The notes under the pieces are model-generated. The model was not told where the DNA came from, did no database searches, and worked only from the letters and a program-made list of their open reading frames with translations. A stretch of DNA of 26,208 nt, taken from a virus. The stretch covers positions 1-26,208 of the IMG/VR virus record IMGVR_UViG_3300021364_001732; one strand, written 5' to 3'. Shown piece by piece: positions 1-13,309 of this stretch; within the stretch, counting starts at the first letter, position 1; each line of letters opens with the position of its first letter. Made by a program: the position numbers and the translations under genes.

Positions 1-3000
1 CCAGTTCAATTAGTGCTGCTTCTGCATCTTTGAGTGGATCTTTATCTGCTTCTTCTGCTACATTATCAGGTAACTTGTCAGCTGCTGATGCCAACCTTTC
101 TGGTGACTTAAATGCCACTGGTGATGTTGGTGGTGCTACTGCTACTATCACAGGTAATTCTACCATTGGTGGCACTTTAAGTGTTGACAGTTCCCTAAGT
201 GCTGATTCTGCTGCAATATCCAATGCCTTAACTGCTGCTTCTGCTACATTATCAGGTAACTTGTCAGCTGCTGATGCCAACCTTTCTGGTGACTTAAATG
301 CCACTGGTGATGTTGGTGGTGCTACTGCCACTATTAGTGGTGCTATGAGTGCTGCTTCTGCTTCATTAACTGGTGCTTTAACTGCTGCTTCTGCTACTTT
401 GAGTGGGTCAATGTCCTCCGATAGTTTATCTACTTCCGCTAATGCTACTATTGGTGGGGATTTAACAATTTCGGGGAACTTGGTTGTTCAAGGTGATTCA
501 GTTCAAGTTAATGTTGGAAGTTTAGAAATTGAAGATTCAATGGTTAAATTTGGTCAAGGTAATTCTTCAGATTCTTTAGACTTGGGATTTTACGGTCAAT
601 ATTCCACAACCACTTCGGGAGACAGTTTCTCCAAAATTGACACTCTTGGAGCTTCCGATGGAGCTTCTGGTGATACTTTTGGATATGGTTCTGCAATATC
701 TAAAGATGGTGAGGTTTTGGTTGTTGGGTCCGCCTTTTGGGAAGGTTCTCAAAACGATCAAGGTGGTGTATATATTTATGATAAAAATGGAGATTCTTGG
801 ACTCAGAGGGGTGATGTTTTAACTGCATCTGATGCCGGGAGTGGTGATAGATATGGAACCTCTTGTGCTGCTAATAGTGATGGTTCCATAATTGCTGTTG
901 GTGCTATTACGTGGGATGGCAGTGCCACCAATCAGGGTGGTGTTTATGTTTATGAATATAGTAATGGTTCTTGGTCTCAAAAAGGGTCTACAGTAACTCA
1001 TTCAGATGCTGGAGCAGAAGACTATCACGTTGTGTGTTCTCTATCCTCTGATGGTACAATTCTTGCTGTTGGTGCTATTGGTTGGGATGCATCTGGTGCT
1101 TCTGACACAGGTGCTGTATATATTTATGATTGGAACTCTTCAACAGAAGATTGGGATCAAAGAAGTAGAGTTACTGCATCTGATGCTGCATCTGCTGATA
1201 GATTTGGATATGGAGTTTCTCTATCCTCTGATGGTACAATTCTTGCTGTTGGTGCTAGAGATTGGGAAGGTTCTTACACAGACCAAGGTGGAGTTTATAT
1301 TTATGATTGGAACTCTTCAACAGAAGATTGGGATCAAAGAGGGGATATCTTAGTTTCCAATTCTGAAGAGTCAGGAGTTATAGGTTTTGGATTAGCTGCT
1401 GAACTGAATGGTGATGGAACTGTATTAGCTGTTTCTCAGCAAGGTTCTTGGTCTAATATGAACGCTAAAGAAGTTCAAATATTTGATTGGAATTCTTCTA
1501 CAAGTTCTTGGGACTATAGAACTAAAATTGATGCAGAAAATGATGCAACCAGAACTCAAAATCAATCAGGATTTGGTACTTCAGTTGGAATAAATTCTTC
1601 TGGGGATAAAATTATTATTGGTGCAGTTTGGGATAATTCTCATAAGGGATATGTCTATACTTATAGTTCATCATCCACTGACACATATTATTCTGGTCTT
1701 TTTAGAGATCAGAGTGATTCTGGAAAGTTTAAGTTGTTCGATGGGATAACTTCTGAACCCGGAAACACTGTAGCTGATGTATCTTCAAATAAAGCAACTC
1801 TATTTGCTGATATTGAGGGTGACATCTCTTATGCAACTGCTAGAACCTTTTCTTTAAGTGGGGATATTGCAGGTTCTGCAACTTTTTCTGGGGATAATAG
1901 TCCTAATATCTCTGCTACTATTCAAGATGACTCTGTTCAGTTGTCCAATATTGACTTCTTCTTAGACGAAGATAATATGGATTCTGATTCGGCAGTTCAT
2001 GTTGCTTCTCAACAGTCAATCAAATCTTATGTTGCAACTAAGGTTGCTTCTGGTGGTCAGTCTGATTTAGAGGCAAAAGATATGTTAATGGTTGATTCTA
2101 CTGGTGATTATGTTAAAGTGAAGGAAATTACAAATTATTCTTTAATTAGTTCTGATGATGAGTCTAATGATTATGTAACAGTTTCAACAGAAATTGAGAG
2201 TGAATTTGAAGATTTATCTAAAGTTTATTTGAATGGTCAGAAATTGAGATTTTCATCTGACAATGGAACAACTAATGATTATTGGTTTTCTGAAACTGCT
2301 GCTGGTGCTACCAAATATAGTAATGACTTAACTGCTTCAGACCAAGCAGCATCCGATCAATTTGGTAGAGTTTCTATTTCTCAAGATGGAAATGTTATGG
2401 TTGTGGGTGCCCCTCTATGGGATAGATCAGGTGGTGGTTCTAATCATGGTGGAGTTTACGTCTATGATTGGAATTCTTCAACTGATTCTTGGGACCAAAG
2501 AGGTAGTGTTTTCTCACCATCTTCTGATGCTACTAATAATGTTAGATTTGGAACATCGACGGCATTAAGTTCTGATGGAACTTATCTTGCTGTAGGTGCT
2601 CTTCTTTATACTGACACTGCAACTTATCAAGGTGCTGCATACGTATACAAATGGAATTCCTCTACTAGTAGTTGGGATAAACAAGGTTCAACAATTGTAG
2701 CAGGTGATGCTGGTGCCAGTGATTATCATTCGAATGTCTCTATCAGTTCCGATGGGACTATTCTATCTGTAGGTGCCGCTTATTGGGATGCAGCTTCTGG
2801 TTCTGATCATGGAGCAGTTTATATTTATGATTGGTCAGATACTGATAGTGATGGAACTGCTGATTCTTGGGTTCAAAGGGGTTCTATATTAACTGCTAGT
2901 GATTCTGCTGCTGGTGATCAATATGGTAGGTCTGTTTCTCTATCCTCTAATGGTGAAATCCTTTTTGTTGGAGCACCTTATTGGGAAGGGGATAGTTCAA

Positions 3001-3461
3001 ATCAAGGTGGAGTTTATGTTTATGATTGGAATTCTTCTAACAGCTCTTGGGATCAAAGAGGTGACGTTTTAGAATCTAATAGTCCATCTTCTAATGGACT
3101 TTTTGGTTGGTCTGCGGAAACTAATGGTGACGGCACTGTCTTATCTGTTACAGAATATTTTTCAAGTAGTAATTCTAATAATATTCAAATATTTGATTGG
3201 AATTCTTCTACAAGTTCTTGGGACTATAGAAGTTCCGTTTCAGATATACCTTCAGGTGCAGTAAATTTCGGTTATACTATATCATTATCTTCTGATGCTG
3301 GTAAACTTGCTGTTGCCGCTTCCGGGAATGGATCCACAGTTGCAGGAAAAGTTTTTACTTATTCTGTATCATCTACTTCAACTAACGATAAAATCAATTT
3401 CAATAATGGTGTAATATCTGAGAATGATAAATTGGAAATTAGCTATATTATAAAATCATAA
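1..3461 (+). CDS. Fibre-like virion protein with two inserted FG-GAP-type propellers (5' partial)
   Basis: The reading frame is open to the left edge (in-frame codons from base 3), so the gene starts upstream; the TTG at 30 is not a credible start. About 1150 residues are visible. The N-terminal part is a low-complexity Ala/Ser/Gly/Thr repeat region (nt 1-430). A scaffold follows, with the motifs SLEIEDSMVKFGQ, LDLGFYG and GLFRDQSDSGKFKLFDG, and it ends in LEISYIIKS. The scaffold is interrupted twice by blocks of about 60-residue repeats (GDxFGxxxSLSSDGxxLAVGAxxW...GGVYVYDWNSS...W), which resemble FG-GAP/integrin-alpha-like propeller blades. The next gene has the same scaffold without these blocks. 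The likely role is a virion appendage that contacts the host surface; this is inferred from repeat architecture and from the neighbouring fibre genes. No lytic or glycosidase motif was recognised. Codons mostly end in T or A, unlike its paralog. Confidence 0.8.
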   Translation, partial: SSISAASASLSGSLSASSATLSGNLSAADANLSGDLNATGDVGGATATITGNSTIGGTLSVDSSLSADSAAISNALTAASATLSGNLSAADANLSGDLNATGDVGGATATISGAMSAASASLTGALTAASATLSGSMSSDSLSTSANATIGGDLTISGNLVVQGDSVQVNVGSLEIEDSMVKFGQGNSSDSLDLGFYGQYSTTTSGDSFSKIDTLGASDGASGDTFGYGSAISKDGEVLVVGSAFWEGSQNDQGGVYIYDKNGDSWTQRGDVLTASDAGSGDRYGTSCAANSDGSIIAVGAITWDGSATNQGGVYVYEYSNGSWSQKGSTVTHSDAGAEDYHVVCSLSSDGTILAVGAIGWDASGASDTGAVYIYDWNSSTEDWDQRSRVTASDAASADRFGYGVSLSSDGTILAVGARDWEGSYTDQGGVYIYDWNSSTEDWDQRGDILVSNSEESGVIGFGLAAELNGDGTVLAVSQQGSWSNMNAKEVQIFDWNSSTSSWDYRTKIDAENDATRTQNQSGFGTSVGINSSGDKIIIGAVWDNSHKGYVYTYSSSSTDTYYSGLFRDQSDSGKFKLFDGITSEPGNTVADVSSNKATLFADIEGDISYATARTFSLSGDIAGSATFSGDNSPNISATIQDDSVQLSNIDFFLDEDNMDSDSAVHVASQQSIKSYVATKVASGGQSDLEAKDMLMVDSTGDYVKVKEITNYSLISSDDESNDYVTVSTEIESEFEDLSKVYLNGQKLRFSSDNGTTNDYWFSETAAGATKYSNDLTASDQAASDQFGRVSISQDGNVMVVGAPLWDRSGGGSNHGGVYVYDWNSSTDSWDQRGSVFSPSSDATNNVRFGTSTALSSDGTYLAVGALLYTDTATYQGAAYVYKWNSSTSSWDKQGSTIVAGDAGASDYHSNVSISSDGTILSVGAAYWDAASGSDHGAVYIYDWSDTDSDGTADSWVQRGSILTASDSAAGDQYGRSVSLSSNGEILFVGAPYWEGDSSNQGGVYVYDWNSSNSSWDQRGDVLESNSPSSNGLFGWSAETNGDGTVLSVTEYFSSSNSNNIQIFDWNSSTSSWDYRSSVSDIPSGAVNFGYTISLSSDAGKLAVAASGNGSTVAGKVFTYSVSSTSTNDKINFNNGVISENDKLEISYIIKS
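52..328 (+). repeat. Exact 91-bp direct repeat, 186-bp period
   Basis: Bases 52-142 and 238-328 are identical, 186 bp (62 codons) apart. Both encode the SAADANLSGDLNATGDVGG module of the fibre N-terminus. The paralog downstream has three copies with the same period. Confidence 0.9.
597..1688 (+). other. First inserted six-blade propeller domain
   Basis: This stretch lies between scaffold motifs LDLGFYG (nt 576-596) and GLFRDQSDSG (from 1695). In the paralog these motifs are separated by only about 11 residues. It encodes six repeats of roughly 60 residues, beginning near ASDGASGDTFGYG, ASDAGSGDRYG, SDAGAEDYH, ASDAASADRFG, SNSEESGVIGFG and TQNQSGFGTS. Each has an SxDGxxLAVGA-type strand and a VYIYDW-type strand. 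The pattern resembles FG-GAP repeat proteins. The blade count comes from reading by eye; the fold is inferred. Confidence 0.7.
2325..3390 (+). other. Second inserted six-blade propeller domain
   Basis: This is a second block of six blades, placed after NGQKLRFSSDNGTTNDYWF and before the last scaffold strand. In the paralog the equivalent loop is about 15-20 residues. Blade order matches the first block: blade 3 of each begins with a DYH signature and ends GAVYIYDW, and blade 5 of each has (E/V)SNS and NGDGTVL motifs. This points to duplication of a whole propeller rather than independent blade growth. Confidence 0.7.
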
Positions 3462-3583
3462 TAAATAATGTGTTATATTATAAAAATTTTAAGTTTATAG
3501 TATGGTGAGTTTATATATAATTATGTGAAGTGAGAAATATATAATTAAATCATAATTTACATTTTTTTTAAAAGGAGAAAAAA

Positions 3584-5245
3584 ATGGCTTTACAAATTAA
3601 GGGTTCTTCCCAGATACAAGACGCTTCCGTTAGTTTATCTAAGATTGCTGACGTTGCTGCTGGTACAATTTTAGGTAGATCAGAAGACGAGTCCGGTAAC
3701 GGTGTTATGTCTGCTATGTCAGGTGCTGACATTAGAAAAATTGCTGAATTGCATTCTGATGATGCTGTTTCATTTGCTTCCGCATCTATTACTGGTGCTG
3801 TAAGTGCTGCTTCCGCAACTTTGAGTGGAGATTTGGCTGCTGCTGATGCTAACTTATCCGGTGACTTAAATGCTACTGGAGACGTTGGTGGTGCTACTGC
3901 TACTATTAGTGGAAATGCTACTATTGGTGGAACTTTAGGTGTTACTAGTTCCATGAGTGCTGCTTCTGCTTCCTTATCTGGTGCTTTAACTGCTGCTTCC
4001 GCAACTTTATCAGGTGATTTAGCTGCTGCTGATGCTAACCTTTCTGGTGACTTGAATGCTACTGGAGACGTTGGTGGTGCTACTGCTACTATCACTGGAA
4101 ACTCCACTATTGGTGGAACTTTAGCTGTAACCAGTTCTTTAAGTGCTGATTCTGCTGCTATCTCAAATGCTGTAACTGCTGCTTCTGCTACTTTAAGTGG
4201 AAACTTAGCTGCTGTAGATGCTAACCTTTCTGGTGACTTGAATGCTACTGGAGACGTTGGTGGTGCTACTGCTACTATTTCTGGTGCTGTAAGTGCTGCT
4301 TCTGCTTCCTTAACTGGTGCTTTAACTGCTGCTTCCGCTACTTTAAGTGGTGCAATGAGTTCTGCTAGTTTATCTACTTCCGCTAATGCTACTATTGGTG
4401 GAGACTTGACTGTAACTGGAGACTTAGTAGTTAACGGTGACAGTGTTCAGGTTAACGTTTCAACTCTACAAGTTGAAGATCCAATGATCAAGTTGGGTCA
4501 ATCTAATGGTGCTGACAGTTTAGATCTAGGTTTCTACGGTCTTTACAATGACGGTGCTGACAAGTATGCTGGTCTTTTTAGAGATCAGAGTGATTCTGGA
4601 AAGTTTAAGTTGTTCGATGGAATAACTTCCGAACCCGGAAACACTGTAGCTGACGTATCCTCCAACAAGGCAACTTTGGTTGCTGACATTGAAGGGGATA
4701 TCTCTTACGCTAATGCTGTAACATTCCAAATTTCCGGTGATGCTGCTGGTTCTGCTTCCTTCTCTGGAGACAACTCACCAAACATCGCTGTAACTATTCA
4801 AGACGATGCTGTTCAGTTATCCAACATTGACTTCTTCTTAGATGAAGATGATATGTCCTCTGATTCAGCAAGTCATGTTGCTTCCCAGCAGTCCATCAAG
4901 AAGTATGTTGACGATCAAGTTGCTTCCAATGGACAGTCTAACTTAGAAGCAAAAGACATGTTGATGGTTGATTCTTCTGGTGGATATGTTAAAGTTAAGG
5001 AAATTATTGAGTACATTACTATCTCGTCTGCTGGTGAAGCTGCGGTTAGTATTGAAGTTGAAGCTGAATTCGACGAATTGTCCATGATTTTCTTGAATGG
5101 TCAGAAATTAAGATTCTCTGATGATGCAGGAACTTCTAACGACTACTACTTCGAAAACAATGCTTCTTCTGAATTCAAGAAGTTGACTTGTGACATGTTC
5201 GAAGTTGGAGACGAGATTGAAGTAAGATACTTCATCAAGTCCTAA
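3584..5245 (+). CDS. Fibre-like virion protein, propeller-free paralog of the preceding gene
   Basis: The 553-residue product begins at an ATG preceded by AAGGAG (3572-3577). The N-terminus MALQIKGSSQIQDASVSLSK leads into three copies of the DANLSGDLNATGDVGG module (nt 3845, 4031, 4217; period 186 bp). A scaffold follows with VEDPMIKLGQSN, LDLGFYGLY, GLFRDQSDSGKFKLFDG and a C-terminal EVRYFIKS. I recall similar VEDP...DxGFYG modules in structural proteins of other marine T4-like phages, but no function is established here. The gene is rich in C-ending codons (AAC, GAC, TTC, TCC), as is gp23, which suggests high expression. The 122-bp upstream gap is very AT-rich and lacks an exact late box; TATAAAAA at 3479-3486 is one mismatch away. 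A terminator follows at 5281. It is probably an abundant virion appendage protein. Confidence 0.8.
   Translation: MALQIKGSSQIQDASVSLSKIADVAAGTILGRSEDESGNGVMSAMSGADIRKIAELHSDDAVSFASASITGAVSAASATLSGDLAAADANLSGDLNATGDVGGATATISGNATIGGTLGVTSSMSAASASLSGALTAASATLSGDLAAADANLSGDLNATGDVGGATATITGNSTIGGTLAVTSSLSADSAAISNAVTAASATLSGNLAAVDANLSGDLNATGDVGGATATISGAVSAASASLTGALTAASATLSGAMSSASLSTSANATIGGDLTVTGDLVVNGDSVQVNVSTLQVEDPMIKLGQSNGADSLDLGFYGLYNDGADKYAGLFRDQSDSGKFKLFDGITSEPGNTVADVSSNKATLVADIEGDISYANAVTFQISGDAAGSASFSGDNSPNIAVTIQDDAVQLSNIDFFLDEDDMSSDSASHVASQQSIKKYVDDQVASNGQSNLEAKDMLMVDSSGGYVKVKEIIEYITISSAGEAAVSIEVEAEFDELSMIFLNGQKLRFSDDAGTSNDYYFENNASSEFKKLTCDMFEVGDEIEVRYFIKS
3845..4300 (+). repeat. Three 186-bp-period coding modules
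   Basis: The string GATGCTAAC starts at 3845, 4031 and 4217, giving two intervals of exactly 186 bp. The encoded 62-residue unit is DANLSGDLNATGDVGG followed by Ala/Ser/Thr-rich spacer. The third unit is shortened after its conserved part. The same unit and period occur at the start of the window. Confidence 0.85.
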
Positions 5246-5269: not shown

Positions 5270-5277
5270 TATAAATA
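5270..5277 (+). promoter_or_regulatory. Late promoter box TATAAATA
   Basis: This is an exact match to the T4 late (gp55) -10 element. It ends 3 bases before the terminator hairpin at 5281, so initiation about 6 bases past the box would fall inside the first stem arm. It would serve the small gene at 5340. Confidence 0.7.
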
Positions 5278-5280
5278 TCT

Positions 5281-5309
5281 GGGAGTGGGGTTTCCTCACT
5301 CCCTTTTTT
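5281..5309 (+). terminator. Intrinsic terminator after the fibre paralog
   Basis: GGGAGTGGGG (5281-5290) pairs with CCTCACTCCC (5294-5303), one G-U pair included, across a TTT loop. A run of six T follows. It would end transcripts of the upstream fibre gene. Confidence 0.9.
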
Positions 5310-5339
5310 AATTTACATTATACAATAGGAGTATTTAAA

Positions 5340-5609
5340 ATGAAAGAACCACTTTTTTTAGTTGAAATGACACAAGCTCAAATAGAGGGTCTTATTTCTG
5401 CACTTGACAGTGTAGTCAAAACAAACGGTCTAGGGGTTGCTGAAAAATGTGCCCAGATTTATAACACTTTACTTTCTGCTCAACCAAAAGTCGAACCAGT
5501 TATTGAACCAGAAGTTGAAGAGGTTTCCTTAGAAGAAGTTGAGGATGAATTGGAACAAATTATGGAAGTTCCTAAAAAAAGAAAAAGATCCACTAGAAAG
5601 AAAAAGTAA
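5340..5609 (+). CDS. Small charge-segregated protein of unknown function
   Basis: The 89-residue product starts at an ATG after AGGAG (5328-5332). Residues 1-50 look like a short helical domain (LVEMTQAQIEGLISALDSVV). A strongly acidic stretch follows (EPEVEEVSLEEVEDELEQ) and then a basic tail (KKRKRSTRKKK). I do not recognise the family. It is isolated between a terminator and the next late promoter, with a late box of its own, so it is probably made late with the virion proteins. The basic tail could bind nucleic acid or an acidic partner, but this is only inferred from charge. Confidence 0.7.
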   Translation: MKEPLFLVEMTQAQIEGLISALDSVVKTNGLGVAEKCAQIYNTLLSAQPKVEPVIEPEVEEVSLEEVEDELEQIMEVPKKRKRSTRKKK

Positions 5610-5612
5610 GAA

Positions 5613-5620
5613 TATAAATA
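5613..5620 (+). promoter_or_regulatory. Late promoter box TATAAATA
   Basis: This exact late box lies just after the stop of the 89-residue gene and 28 bases before the ATG of the first S74 fibre gene. Confidence 0.75.
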
Positions 5621-5648
5621 CTTTTGATAATAACTAGGAGTTTCTAAA

Positions 5649-6761
5649 ATGTCTATACCTGAAACATTACCACAACCACAAATAGTTAATGAGTTGAATA
5701 CTATTGAACAATGGCGTCAAAAAACAAACTCCATTATGAATAGGTTAAATTCATTGTATACTGAATCTAATAATTTAGAAGTTGGTGGTTCAATATATCT
5801 TGATAATCTCAAAACACCAACAGTTACCAGTGATGAAATATTAATTTGTGATCATCAAACAGGTAAAATAGAAAATTCTGGATTAACTGTTTCTGATATA
5901 TCTAGTTTACAGAATGGTAATTTTAGTGGAAATATCGTTGCGTCTGGTGCAATAACCACAAATAGTGGTGGGTTGTATGTTTATGGTGGAAACGGTGTTT
6001 TTGACGAAGATGTTTTTATTAGTGGTAGTTTAGATGTTGGTGAGAATATAACTTGTACTGGTGATGGTGTTAATTCTGGAATAATCACAGCAACAAAATT
6101 TATTGGTGATGGAACTGGTTTAACTCTACCACCAACAACTTTTATATGGTCAGTTGAATCAAATAATACTGATATCTACTATGACCAAGGTAGTGTAAGA
6201 ATTGGTAGTGGTTCATTAGATCCAGAACTGATTTTACAGGGTGTAAATGGAACTAGCAGGTTGCAGAACAGTGGAAACTTTTTAGAACTAGTTTCTGGTT
6301 CGAATGTATTCATGAGAAATTCTTTAACTAATGGGGATGTTTATATTGGTAATAGTTCTATTAAAGTTGACATATCTGAACAAAAAGTTGGAATTGGAAC
6401 TGGAAGTTTACCAACAGAAACATTAGAAGTCGGTGGAGATTCTTTATTCTCAGGTGATATTACAGTAACTGGTGATGTTGTATCCACATCTGATATCTCA
6501 CTCAAAGAGAATATTGAAGTTATATTGAATCCAATAGAAAAAGTAAAAGAATTGAGTGGATACACTTTTAACAGAATTGGACAGGATAAAAGAACTGTTG
6601 GTTTAATGGCACAGGATGTTGAAAAAGTTTTACCAGAAGCAGTATCATCAAATAATGGAATTAAAAGTCTTGCTTATGGAAACTTGGTTGCTCTGCTTGT
6701 TGAAACTGTAAAGGAACAGCAAAAGCAAATAGATGAACTCAGAGAAAAGATTGATAAATAA
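5649..6761 (+). CDS. Tail fibre with C-terminal S74 intramolecular chaperone
   Basis: The 370-residue product starts at an ATG after AGGAG (5636-5640). The N-terminal segment (about residues 1-45) is helical and Asn/Gln-rich. A Gly/Ser/Thr-rich beta region follows, with GDGTGLTLPP and VGIGTGSLPTETLEVGG, the repeat type found in phage fibres that form beta-helical stalks. The last 90 residues are a peptidase S74 chaperone domain: SDISLKENI, with the expected catalytic Ser281 and Lys286, then SGYTFNR, VGLMAQDVEKVLPEAV, AYGNLVALLVE and a terminal coiled coil. In this family the domain trimerises the fibre and then cuts itself off. It forms a late unit with the next fibre gene, 15 bases away. Confidence 0.85.
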   Translation: MSIPETLPQPQIVNELNTIEQWRQKTNSIMNRLNSLYTESNNLEVGGSIYLDNLKTPTVTSDEILICDHQTGKIENSGLTVSDISSLQNGNFSGNIVASGAITTNSGGLYVYGGNGVFDEDVFISGSLDVGENITCTGDGVNSGIITATKFIGDGTGLTLPPTTFIWSVESNNTDIYYDQGSVRIGSGSLDPELILQGVNGTSRLQNSGNFLELVSGSNVFMRNSLTNGDVYIGNSSIKVDISEQKVGIGTGSLPTETLEVGGDSLFSGDITVTGDVVSTSDISLKENIEVILNPIEKVKELSGYTFNRIGQDKRTVGLMAQDVEKVLPEAVSSNNGIKSLAYGNLVALLVETVKEQQKQIDELREKIDK

Positions 6762-6776
6762 TAAAAAGGGTTTGTA

Positions 6777-9278
6777 ATGATAGCTAGAATACAAATAAGA
6801 AGAGATACAGCATCTAATTGGACTGCAAATAATCCAATATTGACATTAGGTGAAATTGGGTATGACACTGATACTGAAAAATTTAAAGTGGGTATTAGTA
6901 ACAGTAGTCGATGGAATGATTTACCATATGAATTAGGTCAATGGAGATCTGATGCTTCTGGTAATATTTCATATGGTTATGCTAGTGATGGTCCAGCAGA
7001 AGGTAATGTATCTATTAATAATGATTTATTTGTTGGTGGTGACTTAACAGTTAAAGGTACAACCACAACTATCAATACAGAAGTTGCCACATTCAAAGAC
7101 GATATAATTCAATTAAATCTTGATGTTGATGATACTGGAATTTACAGTGGAACATTACAATCAGGTTTTGAAGTTAATAGAGGGAATGTTCCAGTTATTG
7201 GACAATCCACCCAAAAACTATATTGGGATGAAACATCTCTTAAATGGGTTATTGATACTGATCTTAATGTCTTAGGTGACATATACTCGAATGGGGTTGC
7301 TCTTTGGAGACTGAACGGTAATGACATTTATTTTGATAATGGTTATGTTGCTATTGGTTTAGACAATCCATCTTCTGTATTACATATAAAAGATGTTGCA
7401 CCCATAATAACCCTTGAAGATGAGAATAATCCTGCTCATATTTGGCAAGTTGGACAAAATGCAGATAAGTTTTTCATAAATACTGAAACTGCTGCTGATG
7501 GTTCAATGTTTTCTATGTTAGAGGGTGGAAATGTTGGAATTGGAACAGATAATCCAGCAACACTCCTTCATCTAAAAGATGATACCCCAGCTAATGAAAA
7601 TACATGTCTAAGATTAGAAAATGATGTTCAAGTTTGGGATTTGTGTAATAGAGGTGGTGATAATGATAAGTTCAAACTTCTTGATGTAAATGCAAACACA
7701 GCACCATTTATTGTTGAGAAAGCAGCAGCTGCAAATTCTTTATATATCAAATCAGATGGAAGTGTTGGAATTGGAACATCAAATCCATCTGCTAAACTCG
7801 ATGTTGCAGGGGAAATTAATTTTTCGGGATCAAGAGGTTCTTTTGTAAGTTCTCTATCACAACCAAGAATTTACAGAAGTGGAAGTGATCAAGGAACTTA
7901 CCCTTTTGATGATTTCGGGCATTTGATATTACAAACAAGAACTGATGGATCTAATCGTGATATAGTTTTTGCGACTGGCACAAATGGAGCAAATCTGACT
8001 GTAATAGATTCTGACGGAAATGTCGCAATTGGAACATCAACACAGTCAACTGCAAGACTTACTGTGGATAGTTCGACTGGAAATTTAGTTGCAAAATTCC
8101 AGAGCAGTGATGCAAATGCATACATTAGTTTTGCTGACAACTCCACATCAACTCCACCCTTAGTTGGTGCGGTTGCTGACGATTTTTCTGTATGGACTGC
8201 TAACACTAGAAGGATGACAATATTAAATAGCAATGGAAATGTCGGAATCGGAACTGAAAGTCCAGGCCAGATTTTACAAGTTGGTGGAGATGTTAGGGGT
8301 CAGATTTATATAGACGGAACTTCAACACAAAGCCCTACACTAACACTTGATCATACATCATTTACAAATGGTCGAAAATGGATTCTATATTCTGGTGGTT
8401 CCGCAGCTGAAAATTTTGATATTTATGATGGAACTGCAAATTTGCCAAGATTTTCAATAGACGAGAACGGTAATGTCGGTATTGGAGACACCACACCAGC
8501 AGAAAAATTAGAAGTAAACGGAGCAATAAAACTTGGAACAACTTCATCAACAAATGCTGGAACAATAAGATGGACTGGTTTTGATTTTGAAGGATATGAT
8601 GGAGCATCTTGGAACTCTCTAACGTCTAGCGGTGCTGTAAGCTCTCAGTGGACAACCTCTGGAAGTGATATTTACTATAATACAGGTAGTGTCGGAATTG
8701 GAACATCATCACCAGATGAACTTCTTCACGTATCAGACACTTCTGCAAACTCAAATCCTGGAATTAGAATAGAAAATGATGCTCAAGAATGGGTAATTTA
8801 CAATAGAGGTAGTGCATCTGATAGATTTCAAATTACCGATGTTACTAACACCGAAAATCCCTTCAAAATTCTTCCAGACTCACCAACCAATTCGATTAGT
8901 ATCACCACAGGTGGTGTTGCTATGGGGAAAGAAGTTGCATCGGAAGTATTAGATGTGGTTGGAAACATAACAGCAACAGGAACAATAACATCATCTTCTG
9001 ATATCACACTCAAAGAAAATATTGAACTAATATCAGACCCAATAGAGAAAGTAAAAGAGATAAGTGGATACACTTTCAATAAGAAAGGTGAAGACTTGAG
9101 ATTGGTCGGACTAATAGCACAAGAAGTTGAAAAAGTCCTTCCAGAAGCAGTTGCCGAAAACAACGAAGGTCTCAAAAGTGTTGCTTACGGAAACCTTGTT
9201 GCCTTACTAGTTGAGTGTGTAAAAAAGCAAGATGAAAGAATAGAAAGTTTAGAAAGAACTATAAAGGAAATGAAGTAA
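6777..9278 (+). CDS. Long tail fibre: Mtd-N-like head, beta repeats, S74 chaperone
   Basis: The 833-residue product starts at an ATG after AAGGG (6766-6770). Residues 1-50 (RIQIRRDTASNW, LTLGEIGYDTD, FKVGISNSSRWNDLPY) resemble the N-terminal domain of Mtd-type fibre proteins, which usually joins a fibre to the virion. Residues 80-130 carry LTVKGTTTTINTEVATF and a DDIIQLN segment. From about 170 to 690 there are repeated GNVGIGT...P units separated by divergent beta domains, probably distal receptor-binding regions. The C-terminus (from residue 741) is an S74 chaperone domain with Ser741 and Lys746 in SDITLKENI and a final coiled coil. Its S74 domain closely resembles that of the preceding gene, so the two fibres may be related by duplication. 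No separate promoter is evident. Confidence 0.85.
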   Translation: MIARIQIRRDTASNWTANNPILTLGEIGYDTDTEKFKVGISNSSRWNDLPYELGQWRSDASGNISYGYASDGPAEGNVSINNDLFVGGDLTVKGTTTTINTEVATFKDDIIQLNLDVDDTGIYSGTLQSGFEVNRGNVPVIGQSTQKLYWDETSLKWVIDTDLNVLGDIYSNGVALWRLNGNDIYFDNGYVAIGLDNPSSVLHIKDVAPIITLEDENNPAHIWQVGQNADKFFINTETAADGSMFSMLEGGNVGIGTDNPATLLHLKDDTPANENTCLRLENDVQVWDLCNRGGDNDKFKLLDVNANTAPFIVEKAAAANSLYIKSDGSVGIGTSNPSAKLDVAGEINFSGSRGSFVSSLSQPRIYRSGSDQGTYPFDDFGHLILQTRTDGSNRDIVFATGTNGANLTVIDSDGNVAIGTSTQSTARLTVDSSTGNLVAKFQSSDANAYISFADNSTSTPPLVGAVADDFSVWTANTRRMTILNSNGNVGIGTESPGQILQVGGDVRGQIYIDGTSTQSPTLTLDHTSFTNGRKWILYSGGSAAENFDIYDGTANLPRFSIDENGNVGIGDTTPAEKLEVNGAIKLGTTSSTNAGTIRWTGFDFEGYDGASWNSLTSSGAVSSQWTTSGSDIYYNTGSVGIGTSSPDELLHVSDTSANSNPGIRIENDAQEWVIYNRGSASDRFQITDVTNTENPFKILPDSPTNSISITTGGVAMGKEVASEVLDVVGNITATGTITSSSDITLKENIELISDPIEKVKEISGYTFNKKGEDLRLVGLIAQEVEKVLPEAVAENNEGLKSVAYGNLVALLVECVKKQDERIESLERTIKEMK

Positions 9279-9300
9279 ATAGTTCTCACTTTTAACATAT

Positions 9301-9308
9301 TATAAATA
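9301..9308 (+). promoter_or_regulatory. Late promoter box TATAAATA
   Basis: This exact late box is 21 bases before the ATG of the gp67-like gene, and it starts the head-assembly transcript. Confidence 0.8.
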
Positions 9309-9329
9309 AATGTGTCATGGAGTTATATT

Positions 9330-9503
9330 ATGAGTAAAAATTTTGAAATAGTTGACAATATATCTAAAGGGAATTTGTCTAAGGCAAGAGAACTGGTGAA
9401 ATTAGTTCTTGACCGTAAAGCAGTCGAATTTCTAGAAAAAGAAAAGGTGAATATCTCAAAAGACTTTTTAAACGATGGGTCCGATGAGACTGGAGAAGAG
9501 TAA
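9330..9503 (+). CDS. 67: Prohead core protein, gp67-like
   Basis: The product has 57 residues. I chose ATG 9330 because GGAG at 9319-9322 sits 7 bases upstream; an in-frame GTG at 9312 would place its start between the late box and this ribosome site. The pattern NLSKARELVKLVLDRKAVEFLEKEKVNISKDFL followed by an acidic tail matches my recollection of T4 gp67, whose helical part contains a similar xAR...L...KEKxxIxxxFL pattern. T4 gp67 is about 80 residues with a longer acidic tail. gp67 is an internal scaffold component cut by the gp21 protease. Its place ahead of g21 and g22 agrees. Confidence 0.75.
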   Translation: MSKNFEIVDNISKGNLSKARELVKLVLDRKAVEFLEKEKVNISKDFLNDGSDETGEE

Positions 9504-10055
9504 ATGAAATCTTTAAAAGATCTAAAAGTTGTAGAAGAGGAAGAAGCAATTGAAGTTAAGAACTCAAAAACTTTTTCCAATTTAAGAAAGAATAACCAAG
9601 ATGAAATTGAAGAAGTTGCGAAAGCTGTAACTGGAAGAGACCAAGAAATAATTGACCAACACCCTTTAGAAGTTATAGATGGGACACAAGGTGAAGATAA
9701 ACCTTTGGAAAATCAAAAGGGTAAGAAGAAAAAGAAAAAGGTTCAGAAGAATGTAATGTCTGATGATAATGGACCAAAACCACAATTAGAATCCAAAACC
9801 AAAAAAGTTGAAGATGTTTATTCAGTTATTGTGGAGTCGGTTGAGAAGAATAGAGATAAGAGAATCTATTTTGAATCCGATGATAGTTCTTTTGTTTTAG
9901 ATCCAAAAGTCTCTAAAATTATCAAGACTGTATATGAAAGTCTTAATAGAGATAATAGAAGAATTATGAGAGAGAAGTTGAATGAAAATTTATCTTCCTT
10001 TTGTAAGGTATTGTCTTTCTCTATATGTAAATTAGGAAAAGTAGAAGAGAGTTAA
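9504..10055 (+). CDS. Probable prohead core protein (gp68 position)
   Basis: The 183-residue product begins at the ATG directly after the TAA of the gp67-like gene (no spacer), so translation is probably coupled. It is highly charged: an acidic and helical N-terminus, a Lys block (KGKKKKKKVQK, about residues 73-83), and a more ordered C-terminal third (VIVESVEKNRDKRIYFES, then SSFCKVLSFSICKLG). I do not recognise the sequence itself. The charge, and its place between gp67 and the gp21 protease where T4 has g68, suggest a prohead core component. It ends 1 base before g21. Confidence 0.55.
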   Translation: MKSLKDLKVVEEEEAIEVKNSKTFSNLRKNNQDEIEEVAKAVTGRDQEIIDQHPLEVIDGTQGEDKPLENQKGKKKKKKVQKNVMSDDNGPKPQLESKTKKVEDVYSVIVESVEKNRDKRIYFESDDSSFVLDPKVSKIIKTVYESLNRDNRRIMREKLNENLSSFCKVLSFSICKLGKVEES

Positions 10056-10056
10056 A

Positions 10057-10707
10057 ATGAAACTGATAAAAGAGTTGATAGAAGAAGAAAACCTTCAATT
10101 CATCACTGAAGATAAAGATGGTGAAAAAAGATATTATATTGAAGGTGTTTTTATGCAAGCAGATGTTAAAAATAAAAATGGTCGAATGTATGGTTCGAAT
10201 ATGCTTGCCGAAAAGGTTGAAGAGTATTCCAAAAACTTTATTGAAAAAAATAGAGCTTACGGTGAACTAGGACACCCATCAAATCCTTCTATTAATTTGG
10301 AGAGAGTTTCACATAGAATTGTTTCCTTGAAAAAGGATGGTTCAAACTTCGTAGGTAAGGCACAAGTATCTAGCACCCCCTATGGTAACATCGTCAAAGG
10401 TCTTTTAGAAGACGGTGGAAAACTTGGAGTCTCATCTAGAGGACTGGGATCATTGATGAAGGAAAACGGAGTGTTAAAAGTTCAGAGTGATTTTATGATT
10501 GTCACTCCAGCAGACATTGTTGCAGATCCATCTGCTCCAGATGCTTTCGTTGAAGGTATCATGGAAGGTCGAGAATGGGTATGGGATAATGGTATCATTC
10601 GTGAAAAAACTGTTGAAGATTATAAACAAATTGTAGAGAAGACATCATCTAAAGATTTGAAGATGATGAAACTAAAGTTATTCGAAGATTTTCTTTCGAA
10701 ACTGTAA
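10057..10707 (+). CDS. 21: Prohead maturation protease gp21
   Basis: The 216-residue product is close to the T4 length (212). It cuts scaffold and capsid proteins during head maturation, usually after (L/I)xE. Visible family marks are YYIEGVFMQADVKNKNGRMY near the N-terminus, the catalytic His in GELGHP (His73), and the nucleophile motif LGVSSRGLG (Ser126 or Ser127), followed by DIVADPSAPDAFV. The gene lies between the core genes and g22/g23 as in T4-like phages. The C-terminal 40 residues are Lys-rich and helical. A late box follows at 10719. Confidence 0.93.
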   Translation: MKLIKELIEEENLQFITEDKDGEKRYYIEGVFMQADVKNKNGRMYGSNMLAEKVEEYSKNFIEKNRAYGELGHPSNPSINLERVSHRIVSLKKDGSNFVGKAQVSSTPYGNIVKGLLEDGGKLGVSSRGLGSLMKENGVLKVQSDFMIVTPADIVADPSAPDAFVEGIMEGREWVWDNGIIREKTVEDYKQIVEKTSSKDLKMMKLKLFEDFLSKL

Positions 10708-10718
10708 ATATTAATTAT

Positions 10719-10726
10719 TATAAATA
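10719..10726 (+). promoter_or_regulatory. Late promoter box TATAAATA
   Basis: This exact late box is 36 bases before the ATG of g22. Confidence 0.8.
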
Positions 10727-10762
10727 GATATAATAAATGCAAAACATTTAGGAGTATTAAAA

Positions 10763-11860
10763 ATGTCTAGTGAAATTTTAAATGAAGAAGAAGAAACTAT
10801 TGAAATTTCGGAAGAAACTACTGAGGTCGAAACAGAGGTTGAAACCGAAGAAACTGCTGAAGTTGAATTAGATGAATCTGTTGAAGTTGAAACAGATACA
10901 GAAGTCGAACTTACAGATGAAGAAACTGAAGGTGCTGTTTTAGAATCAGTTCTAGAAACCTTACCTACTTCTAAATCAGGAATGGTTCAAACTATCAACA
11001 CCCTATTAACTGAAATGACTAAGGATGAGTTACAATTTAAAGTAAAGCACTTAGTTGAAGTCTTAACTTCCACTGAAAAAGAAATTCTTGAAAGAGAAGG
11101 TGGGTTGAACTTAACAGAAGTTGATCTATCTGATGATGTTAATTCATTGTTTGAGGGTGAAGAGTTTGATGTAAACTTCCGAAGAAAAGCAACTTTGTTA
11201 TTCGAAACTGCTGTTGCTAAAAGAGTTGAAGAAGTTCAAACTAATATTGAAGAGAACTTCAAGCAAGATATGGAAGAGCAAGTTCTTGACTATAAAGAAA
11301 AGTTAGCAGAAGCTGTTGACAAACTTTTAAATGCTTCCATCGAAGATTGGCAAGATGATAATAAACTTGCTATTCATTCTGGACTTAAAGCAGAAATCAC
11401 TGAAGAATTCATGAGTGGATTAAAGACACTTTTCAAAGAGCATTACATTGATATCCCTGAAGATAAAGAAAATGAATATGTTAATTTGAAAGAGTCACAT
11501 GATAACACATCAATCAAGTTGAACGAAGAGATTGAAAAGAATATTGAACTTAAATCTACTATTCACGAACAGCAAAGAGAAATTTTGTTCTGGGAAAACA
11601 CTCAAGATTTGACAACTGTTGAACGAGAGAGATTGCAGAAACTTGCTGAAAAGATTGAATTTGATAATGAAGATGAGTATGTTGAAGGATTGGAAACAAT
11701 CAAGAAATGTTACTTCACTGAAAAAGAAGAAGAAGTTGTAACTGAAGAATCCGAAGAGATTGAAGAAGTTGAAACTCTTCAAGTAGTAGCTGAAACTACT
11801 GAACAACCTAAAACTAAAATTGAACGATATGCCCAAGATTTGGGTCGATATTGGAAATAA
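10763..11860 (+). CDS. 22: Prohead core scaffold protein gp22
   Basis: The 365-residue product starts at an ATG after AGGAG (10750-10754). It is the major internal scaffold on which gp23 assembles, and is later degraded by gp21. The first 60 residues are almost wholly acidic, with repeated TEVE/ETEE units. The middle is long amphipathic helix (KDELQFKVKHLVEVLTS, then FETAVAKRVEEVQTNIEENF). The C-terminus ends KIERYAQDLGRYWK, an ending typical of T4-like gp22. It is longer than T4 gp22 (269 residues), mainly through the acidic N-terminus and a second acidic stretch near residues 325-345. Many xxE sites could be cut by gp21. It lies between the protease and capsid genes and has its own late box. 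Confidence 0.88.
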   Translation: MSSEILNEEEETIEISEETTEVETEVETEETAEVELDESVEVETDTEVELTDEETEGAVLESVLETLPTSKSGMVQTINTLLTEMTKDELQFKVKHLVEVLTSTEKEILEREGGLNLTEVDLSDDVNSLFEGEEFDVNFRRKATLLFETAVAKRVEEVQTNIEENFKQDMEEQVLDYKEKLAEAVDKLLNASIEDWQDDNKLAIHSGLKAEITEEFMSGLKTLFKEHYIDIPEDKENEYVNLKESHDNTSIKLNEEIEKNIELKSTIHEQQREILFWENTQDLTTVERERLQKLAEKIEFDNEDEYVEGLETIKKCYFTEKEEEVVTEESEEIEEVETLQVVAETTEQPKTKIERYAQDLGRYWK

Positions 11861-11880
11861 TAATTGTAAAAAACAAATAA

Positions 11881-11888
11881 TATAAATA
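11881..11888 (+). promoter_or_regulatory. Late promoter box TATAAATA (capsid gene)
   Basis: This exact late box is 71 bases before the gp23 ATG, giving the longest leader among the late units here. Confidence 0.8.
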
Positions 11889-11920
11889 TATTTGTGATGA
11901 ACTAAGTGTAACTAAGATGT

Positions 11921-11937
11921 TAGATTCTGAAAATCTA
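11921..11937 (+). promoter_or_regulatory. Hairpin in the gp23 leader
   Basis: TAGATT (11921-11926) and AATCTA (11932-11937) form a 6-bp stem with a 5-base loop, 22 bases before the ATG and upstream of AAGGAG (11945-11950). It may stabilise the capsid mRNA. The stem is AT-rich and marginal. Confidence 0.4.
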
Positions 11938-11959
11938 TACGGAAAAGGAGAAAATTAAA

Positions 11960-13243
11960 ATGAGTTACGAAGATTTGTTGAAAAAATGGGAACCTATTCT
12001 TGAGCACCCTGAGTTTGCTGAGATTAAGGATCCTTACAAGAAAAAAGTCACAGCAATCCTTTTAGAGAATCAGGATCGTGACATGGAAGAAGCTAAAAAT
12101 GGTGGATACGGTTCTCTTAATGAAACTAATGTTGCTGGTGCTACTGGTTTTCAAAGTGCAAACACTGGACCTCAAGCAGGTTTTGACCCAGTTCTCATCT
12201 CTATGATTCGAAGAAGTATGCCAAACTTGATTGCTTTTGACGTAATGGGTGTTCAACCTATGAACGGTCCTTCTGGTCTTATTTTCGCAATGAAGAGTAA
12301 CTATACTGCACAAGGTGGAGCAGAAGCTCTTCACGATGAAGCTAACACTGGATTCTCTGGTGATGGTACTGCTAATGGTGCTGCAAATCCTTTTGATGCT
12401 GCTTATGCTGCTGGTTCAGGACTTGGAACTGCTGATGCTGAACTTTTAGGTTCTGGTGCTCCTGCTGGTGATTTTGCTGAAATGGCAATGTCCATCGATA
12501 AGATTTCTGTAACTGCAAAGTCCAGAGCTCTTAAAGCAGAATACACTATGGAATTAGCACAAGACTTGAAAGCAATTCATAATCTTGATGCTGAATCCGA
12601 ATTAGCAAACATTCTTTCAACTGAAATCATGGCTGAAATCAACCGAGAGATGATTCGAAAGATTAACTTGACTGCTACTGCTGGTGCTGCTGATACTCAA
12701 GCACCCGGAACTTTTGACTTAGACTTAGACTCCAGTGGTCGATGGTCTGTTGAAAAGTTCAAAGGACTTTTATTCCAAATCGAGAGAGATGCTAATGCTA
12801 TTGCTAAGGCTACTCGACGAGGAAAGGGAAATGTTATCATCTGTTCCTCTGATGTTGCTTCTGCTCTTCAGATGGCTGGTGTTCTAGATTACAATCCTGC
12901 TCTTCAAAACAGTCTACAAGTTGACGATACAGGAAGCACTTTTGCTGGTGTTTTGAACGGACGATACAAAGTTTATATCGATCCTTATGTATCTGGTGTT
13001 GAATATTACACTCTTGGATACAAAGGTTCCAGTGCTTATGATGCTGGTTTGTTCTACTGTCCATACGTTCCACTTCAGATGGTTCGAGCAATGGGAGAAA
13101 ACACTTTCCAACCAAAAATCGGTTTCAAGACTCGATATGGTTTGGTTGCTAACCCATTCGCTACTGCTGCTGGTGACGGTGATGTTAATTCTGCTAAAAA
13201 GAATCTTTACTACAGAGCTGTTAAAGTAGACAACTTATTATAA
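11960..13243 (+). CDS. 23: Major capsid protein gp23
   Basis: The 427-residue product has clear T4-like capsid marks: PVLISMIRRSMPNLIAFDVM, GVQPMNGPSGLIFAMKSNY, a Gly/Ala-rich insertion, KISVTAKSRALKAEYTMELAQDL, LANILSTEIMAEINREMIRK, then VGFKTRYG-like IGFKTRYGLVANPFA near the C-terminus. It is shorter than T4 gp23 (521 residues), as I recall for marine relatives. The gp21 protease is expected to remove an N-terminal peptide; L-N-E at residues 53-55, or L-L-E at 34-36, fit its site rule. The start ATG follows AAGGAG. The gene has many C-ending codons and CGA for Arg, consistent with very high expression. An intrinsic terminator follows at 13269. No g24 vertex gene lies next to it. Confidence 0.95.
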   Translation: MSYEDLLKKWEPILEHPEFAEIKDPYKKKVTAILLENQDRDMEEAKNGGYGSLNETNVAGATGFQSANTGPQAGFDPVLISMIRRSMPNLIAFDVMGVQPMNGPSGLIFAMKSNYTAQGGAEALHDEANTGFSGDGTANGAANPFDAAYAAGSGLGTADAELLGSGAPAGDFAEMAMSIDKISVTAKSRALKAEYTMELAQDLKAIHNLDAESELANILSTEIMAEINREMIRKINLTATAGAADTQAPGTFDLDLDSSGRWSVEKFKGLLFQIERDANAIAKATRRGKGNVIICSSDVASALQMAGVLDYNPALQNSLQVDDTGSTFAGVLNGRYKVYIDPYVSGVEYYTLGYKGSSAYDAGLFYCPYVPLQMVRAMGENTFQPKIGFKTRYGLVANPFATAAGDGDVNSAKKNLYYRAVKVDNLL

Positions 13244-13257
13244 TAACTATAATACAG

Positions 13258-13265
13258 TATAAATA
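13258..13265 (+). promoter_or_regulatory. Late promoter box TATAAATA in front of a terminator
   Basis: This exact late box ends 4-6 bases before the terminator stem. Initiation about 6 bases downstream (near 13271) would put the whole hairpin at the very 5' end of the RNA. It may instead be a chance or non-productive box, as another lies at 13302. Confidence 0.5.
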
Positions 13266-13268
13266 AAA

Positions 13269-13296
13269 AAACCTTCCCTTCGGGGAGGGTTTTTTT
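13269..13296 (+). terminator. Intrinsic terminator after gp23, UUCG tetraloop
   Basis: ACCTTCCC (13271-13278) pairs with GGGAGGGT (13283-13290), one G-U pair included, around a TTCG loop closed by C-G. The stem can extend through A-T pairs into the seven-T run (13290-13296). Confidence 0.95.
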
Positions 13297-13301
13297 GCTA
13301 T

Positions 13302-13309
13302 TATAAATA
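13302..13309 (+). promoter_or_regulatory. Late promoter box TATAAATA
   Basis: This exact late box is 17 bases before the ATG of the tail-tube-like gene and just downstream of the gp23 terminator. Confidence 0.75.

Follow-up and report, generated by a model that had tools for sequence, protein, structure and literature searches.

Beta-propellers have been described in the adhesins of several phages, namely in Gp45 of Staphylococcus phage phi11, P2 of PRD1 and the C-terminal domain of PhiKZ gp131 (PMC4901313). The phi11 protein contains one five-bladed propeller per chain, which stands in line between stem and tower and is thought to bind a surface sugar, and the propellers of the other two, both suspected receptor-binding proteins, are seven-bladed or distorted five-bladed; in the available part of that account, no plain tandem paralogue is mentioned for Gp45, and no pair of loop insertions is reported for PhiKZ gp131 or PRD1 P2 (PMC4901313). 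FG-GAP proteins are also found in Vibrio phage nt-1 and in cyanophage S-TIM5 and S-MbCM6.

The locus described here lies on a 26-kb fragment of a marine T4-like phage (a myophage, taken from a virus record), which is 26,208 nucleotides long and is called the window below. It encodes a decorated fibre paralogue, protein A, followed by a plain one, protein B. Like the adhesins mentioned above, A carries propellers, but it differs from Gp45 in that its two propellers consist of six FG-GAP blades each and occupy loops in two different domains. The FG-GAP proteins of nt-1, S-TIM5 and S-MbCM6 are 28-35% similar to the propellers of A and, unlike A, are stand-alone proteins of ~400 aa or part of a giant structural protein of ~7000 aa. 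In S-MbCM6 (L131), the FG-GAP stretch similar to A lies in a single structural gene of ~21 kb (NC_019444.1:50779-71847). The A/B scaffold gave short, partial matches only in annotated phages, and the literature searched, with incomplete coverage, contained no description of FG-GAP tail fibres or of tandem decorated fibres. An initial interpretation made from the DNA letters alone (the sequence-only reading) had named no described phage system with this layout. In this respect it was too broad, given that adhesin propellers as well as FG-GAP proteins are already known from phages; what appears to be undescribed is the conserved pair of a decorated and a plain paralogue with two standard loops and nested cargo. 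The explanation that we favour, and hold to be probable though well short of certain, is that these are receptor-binding fibres of modular build, in which inserts enter at two hot spots and a plain partner stays constant.

Genomic setting of the fibre island

The window belongs to the T4-like phages according to its gp23-type capsid protein, which matches those of Melnitz and HTVC008M at ~62% over 99%, and its T4 gene order. The fibre genes are followed by gp21, gp22, gp23, UvsY, UvsW, gp55, gp46/47, clamp, clamp loader and DNA polymerase genes; some of these names come from Pfam (UvsY and the clamp loader among them), others from the annotated order in HTVC008M and Melnitz, and the remainder from reading. 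These two T4-like marine myophages share the order of virion and replication genes with the window, but lack its fibre island, which is situated between gp20 (portal) and gp21 (prohead protease) (Table 1); their gp20-gp21 gap holds small ORFs only. In comparison with the close relative L005 (a 137-kb contig, record G002), most of whose core genes occur in unchanged order at 80-98% identity, the island evolves fast, with 56% for A and 71% for B against mostly 80-98% for other genes. The boundaries in Table 1 are given for testing how such phages alter host contact.

Table 1. Positions of the fibre-island features in the window
Feature	Position	Strand	Description and evidence
Protein A, decorated fibre paralogue	3..3461	+	1152 aa in window; open frame from window edge, 5' end outside window
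A stalk	3..575	+	Repeated ATGDVGGATATISG...TIGGTL units and strand region before site 1; 86% to B 135-321
Site 1, 5' flank (LDLGFYG)	576..596	+	Motif common to B and relatives surveyed
Propeller 1 (site 1)	624..1673	+	Six four-stranded FG-GAP blades; AF2, Foldseek
A middle domain (GLFRDQSDSGKFKLFDG ... VKVKE ... YLNGQKL)	1695..2240	+	3' flank of site 1 and 5' flank of site 2; 75% to B
Propeller 2 (site 2)	2307..3368	+	Six FG-GAP blades inside C-terminal beta domain; AF2, Foldseek
Last strands of A (NDKINFNNGVISENDKLEISYIIKS)	3384..3461	+	3' flank of site 2; AF2 strands 583-588, 598-606
A-B intergenic stretch	3462..3583	.	Conserved, AT-rich; 97% to L004, L005, L006
Protein B, plain fibre paralogue	3584..5245	+	553 aa
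B empty site 1	4541..4567	+	Nine-residue loop between DLGFYG and AGLFRD
B empty site 2	5156..5173	+	Short loop after NDYYFE
89-aa conserved protein	5340..5609	+	Between fibre pair and S74 fibres; 95-100% identical in L005, L004
Two more fibre genes of the island	5649..9278 (5649-6761, 6777-9278)	+	Pfam, PHROGs

Both additional fibres end in Peptidase_S74 chaperone domains (Pfam, PHROGs), and the second one starts with an Mtd_N domain. A C-terminal Peptidase_S74 domain is absent from A and B according to Pfam, so that these two are not S74 self-cleaving fibres; PHROGs returned weak matches of A and B to structural and tail-fibre families, and structural genes surround them. Because the island is located between gp20 and gp21, inside the head gene cluster, some probability has to be left to A and B being head fibres or capsid decorations, whose propellers would keep the particle close to cells or to surface material, and weak PHROG matches to 'head and packaging' structural families agree with this. 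However, gene order is weak evidence for a location on the particle, and S74 chaperone domains as well as matches to the distal subunits of T4 long tail fibres are found in the neighbouring fibres, which is why we rate a head position as rather unlikely.

Several smaller observations concern the same region. The 89-aa protein, for which no Pfam family scored above the cut-off, is conserved amid fast-evolving fibre genes and might be a small assembly factor. On contigs that read through the stretch between gp20 and A, a protein of 371-465 aa is encoded there (L005:5368-6723), and the strands at its C-terminus are arranged much as at the ends of A and B. The T4 late-promoter sequence TATAAATA has nine late-promoter-like sites in the window versus 2.2 expected; seven of them, on the + strand and spread over 5270-13309, lie near gene starts.

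Scaffold and propellers of the fibre pair

As the sequence-only reading had proposed, A and B share one scaffold with the same motif order: the stalk is 86% identical (A 14-200 versus B 135-321) and the middle domain 75% (A 563-771 versus B 328-532; both blastp). The two insertions of A were likewise placed correctly by that reading. At site 1, 365 aa separate DLGFYG (aa 193-198) from SGLFRD (aa 564) in A, compared with 9 aa in B, and at site 2, ~360 aa extend from NDYWFS (ending at 2291) to NDKINF (starting at 3384), a place at which the loop of B comprises a few residues. The stalk of A gave a weak bactofilin-like Pfam match under the cut-off of that family. The intergenic stretch between the two genes likely carries the start signals of B and is a possible recombination anchor; its 97% identity to L004, L005 and L006 is kept despite the differing propellers next to it.

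The blades of A, which had been called FG-GAP-like from their letters, are recognised by Pfam FG-GAP_2 (PF14312) in nine stretches with 197 bits (cut-off 23, E 4e-59), and the same family scored above its cut-off in the relatives L004, L005, L006 and L007. AlphaFold2 was run on two shorter models; a multi-domain alignment of A had left propeller 1 without aligned rows. The model of propeller 1 (md37f0ba02f8a) has 24 strands in six groups of four, a pTM of 0.79 and a pLDDT of mostly 85-98 in 10-residue blocks, and that of propeller 2 (m9f7f5e103b33) reached similar confidence, with six repeats, counted by eye, set between strands of the C-terminal domain. A propeller fold of six four-strand repeats is accordingly predicted by the models for both inserts. 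In Foldseek searches against the PDB, integrin alpha propellers were the top matches of propeller 1 (E 3.6e-13, prob 1.0) as well as of propeller 2 (E 1.9e-12, prob 1.0), and giant-virus and phage FG-GAP proteins were among the best matches in predicted viral structures. Integrin alpha propellers are built of the same type of repeat but have seven blades, whereas each propeller of A has six, and a shared ligand is not claimed.

The pair and its cargo in related phages

Scans of viral contigs yielded A genes on L004, L005, L006, L007, L134, L140 and L156, which together with the window makes eight. All of these contigs except L007, which ends inside A, have A and then B, and the six further cases rule out a curiosity of a single genome. 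The gene next after A is a plain B in L004 and L005 (492 aa each) and in L134 (528 aa). In L140 and L006, B follows A and is truncated by the contig end, in L140 before site 1 and in L006, where it starts at 9530, after 25 residues. In L156, a second, different fibre is located between A and a plain B; this third fibre paralogue (L156:7855-9426) has a different middle domain. B is plain at both sites wherever it is fully readable (window, L004, L005, L134, L156). The combination of a decorated A with a plain B is kept beyond one contig. Scans with the B proteins of L134 and L140 as queries found no new complete pair, and a scan of genome contigs gave one distant domain match only, on a Flavobacteriaceae MAG contig, and no host.

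The cargo of A varies considerably. Site 2 is filled with a propeller in seven of the eight genes (complete in six, truncated in L007 where the contig stops) and empty in L156; site 1 is filled in the window, L134 and L156 and empty in L004, L005, L006, L007 and L140. L004 and L005 have a single propeller at site 2. In L006, a domain of ~160 aa is nested between blades 3 and 4 of this propeller, and L134 combines a 198-aa insert at site 1 with a site-2 propeller whose nested domain is 92% identical to that of L006. L156 carries 214 residues at site 1, and the site-1 inserts of L134 and L156 look like unrelated domains. For the non-propeller inserts of L006, L134 and L156, nothing was found in Pfam up to E 10; by eye only, they have a sugar-binding look. 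The A gene of L140 (L140:4156-8223) also has a site-2 FG-GAP propeller, whose blades 3 and 4 are separated by a nested stretch; this stretch matches Sortilin-Vps10 and BNR repeats (E 5e-16) and is, judged from these matches, probably a second propeller inside the propeller.

Among the A genes collected, a propeller at site 1 was seen in the window only, and the two-propeller state is accordingly known from this one contig, its relatives having one propeller or other inserts. This, together with the finding that the closest relative of propeller 1 sits at site 2 of another phage (L140), would fit a chimeric assembly of strain variants. We hold such an artefact to be highly improbable, since the insert is in frame at both ends, shows neither frame break nor stop and lies precisely in the loop that houses inserts in L134 and L156, too. 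Large site-1 inserts are rare, because 60 of the 63 distinct junctions at the collected loci hold loops of 5-14 aa and three hold inserts of 198-365 aa. All three were found in genes with a plain relative downstream and, in this sample, in A genes only, and for this reason the layout in the window is not put down to chance.

It could also be argued that the propellers are passengers, i.e. repeat-rich inserts tolerated in loops without a role in host contact, given that FG-GAP propellers are widespread in many kinds of large viral proteins and that the inserts can be lacking, as B and individual sites of the A genes show. The presence of a site-2 propeller in seven of eight A genes argues against this, as does its divergence, which is far greater than that of its flanks and would be expected of a host-contact module; moreover, unrelated-looking domains occupy the same two loops. 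Passengers are therefore considered improbable.

Probable cargo exchange and the proposed working of the pair

Between the window and L004/L005, DNA identity is 81-88% just before site 2, drops to 44-74% over propeller 2 and rises to 97-99% directly behind it, with the intergenic stretch included, and the 3' end of A from 3414 on is 91-99% identical to L004/L005/L006. The propeller of L006 is mostly 75-96% identical to that of the window. Propeller 1 shares 69-72% identity with the split propeller at site 2 of L140 but 51% with propeller 2 of the window, so that an origin of propeller 1 by internal duplication was rejected. The dip in identity over propeller 2 between conserved flanks and the closeness of propeller 1 to that of L140 suggest that the modules move between phages and between sites.

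Under the favoured explanation, A and B would be paralogues that form fibres on the virion of a marine T4-like myophage; their genes lie in the gp20-gp21 island, and their place on the virion is deduced from this gene context. A would be the variable, receptor-facing fibre, in which the domain above the stalk provides the loop of site 1 and the C-terminal tip domain that of site 2. Binding modules with a fold of their own may plug into both loops and be exchanged between phages by recombination via the conserved flanks, and in the window phage each site holds an integrin-like FG-GAP propeller. B, with the same stalk and middle domain and no cargo, may serve as a constant partner or as a second fibre. 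Uncultured marine T4-like phages would then possess an adhesin system that carries whole folded domains at two fixed loops, even one domain inside another, beside a cargo-free copy. From the precedent of phi11 Gp45 (PMC4901313) and the fast divergence we infer that the propellers bind sugars or proteins of the host surface. The receptor- or glycan-binding role suggested by the sequence-only reading is thus the likeliest one, and A and B may also form trimers and work together.

Phylogenetic trees were calculated for separate segments, which are short (64-144 columns) and contain few rows (11). In the first ~64 residues of the close group, identities are 58-81% between A proteins, 77-88% between B proteins and 55-64% between A and B of one genome; the N-terminal ends group by paralogue, and a grouping of A with B was rejected in two genomes (p 0.0004 and 0.0007). 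The middle segment, in contrast, groups by genome and not with all other A genes, and B as one clade was rejected (p 8.6e-6, dlnL 310). The C-terminal segment again groups by paralogue, with the within-genome pair rejected for the window, L004 and L005 (p <= 1e-10) but not for L134 (p 0.30), whose B end is a long branch. A simple separate evolution of the two paralogues was rejected by these trees, and in terms of sequence the middle of A and B is under concerted evolution. Mosaic trees of this kind would result from gene conversion, from selection for matching stalks, or from both.

The sequence-only reading had suggested that a propeller-decorated and a plain copy in tandem may build mixed or alternative appendages. 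The tandem plain copy is borne out, and the alternative use now appears weaker. If A and B were alternative fibres competing for one virion socket, mixed particles of two host ranges could result. The near likeness of stalk and middle within a genome is in line with this idea, and so are the two intact, adjacent genes and the conserved stretch upstream of B. However, the N-terminal segment of a fibre is usually the part that docks to the particle, and it is this segment that is paralogue-specific in the close group, with the rejected A+B pairing in two genomes; as far as alignments can tell, this argues for two fixed roles over swapping on one socket. Nor did a recombinase, an invertible segment or a phase-variation signal come to notice incidentally, and we give competition for a socket a low probability. 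Co-assembly of A and B was considered as well. In this case, decorated and plain chains would form one fibre, either as a hetero-oligomer or as a fixed stacked complex, and the homogenised stalk and middle would be kept matched because the chains form one fibre; the plain chain would set the number of bulky propellers per appendage, and cargo would be exchanged at the two standard loops. We regard co-assembly as doubtful; it can be put to a direct test because the two middle domains evolve in concert.

Repeats were also noticed at other loci. L005 encodes a 1518-aa protein (record G002:100326-104879) whose repeated domains appear Calx-beta-like to the eye and in which two stretches show a weak likeness to propellers (matches to Lactonase and Kelch). 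On a 202-kb viral contig (L145:1774-8544), four tandem paralogues of 554-561 aa each contain FG-GAP-like repeats.
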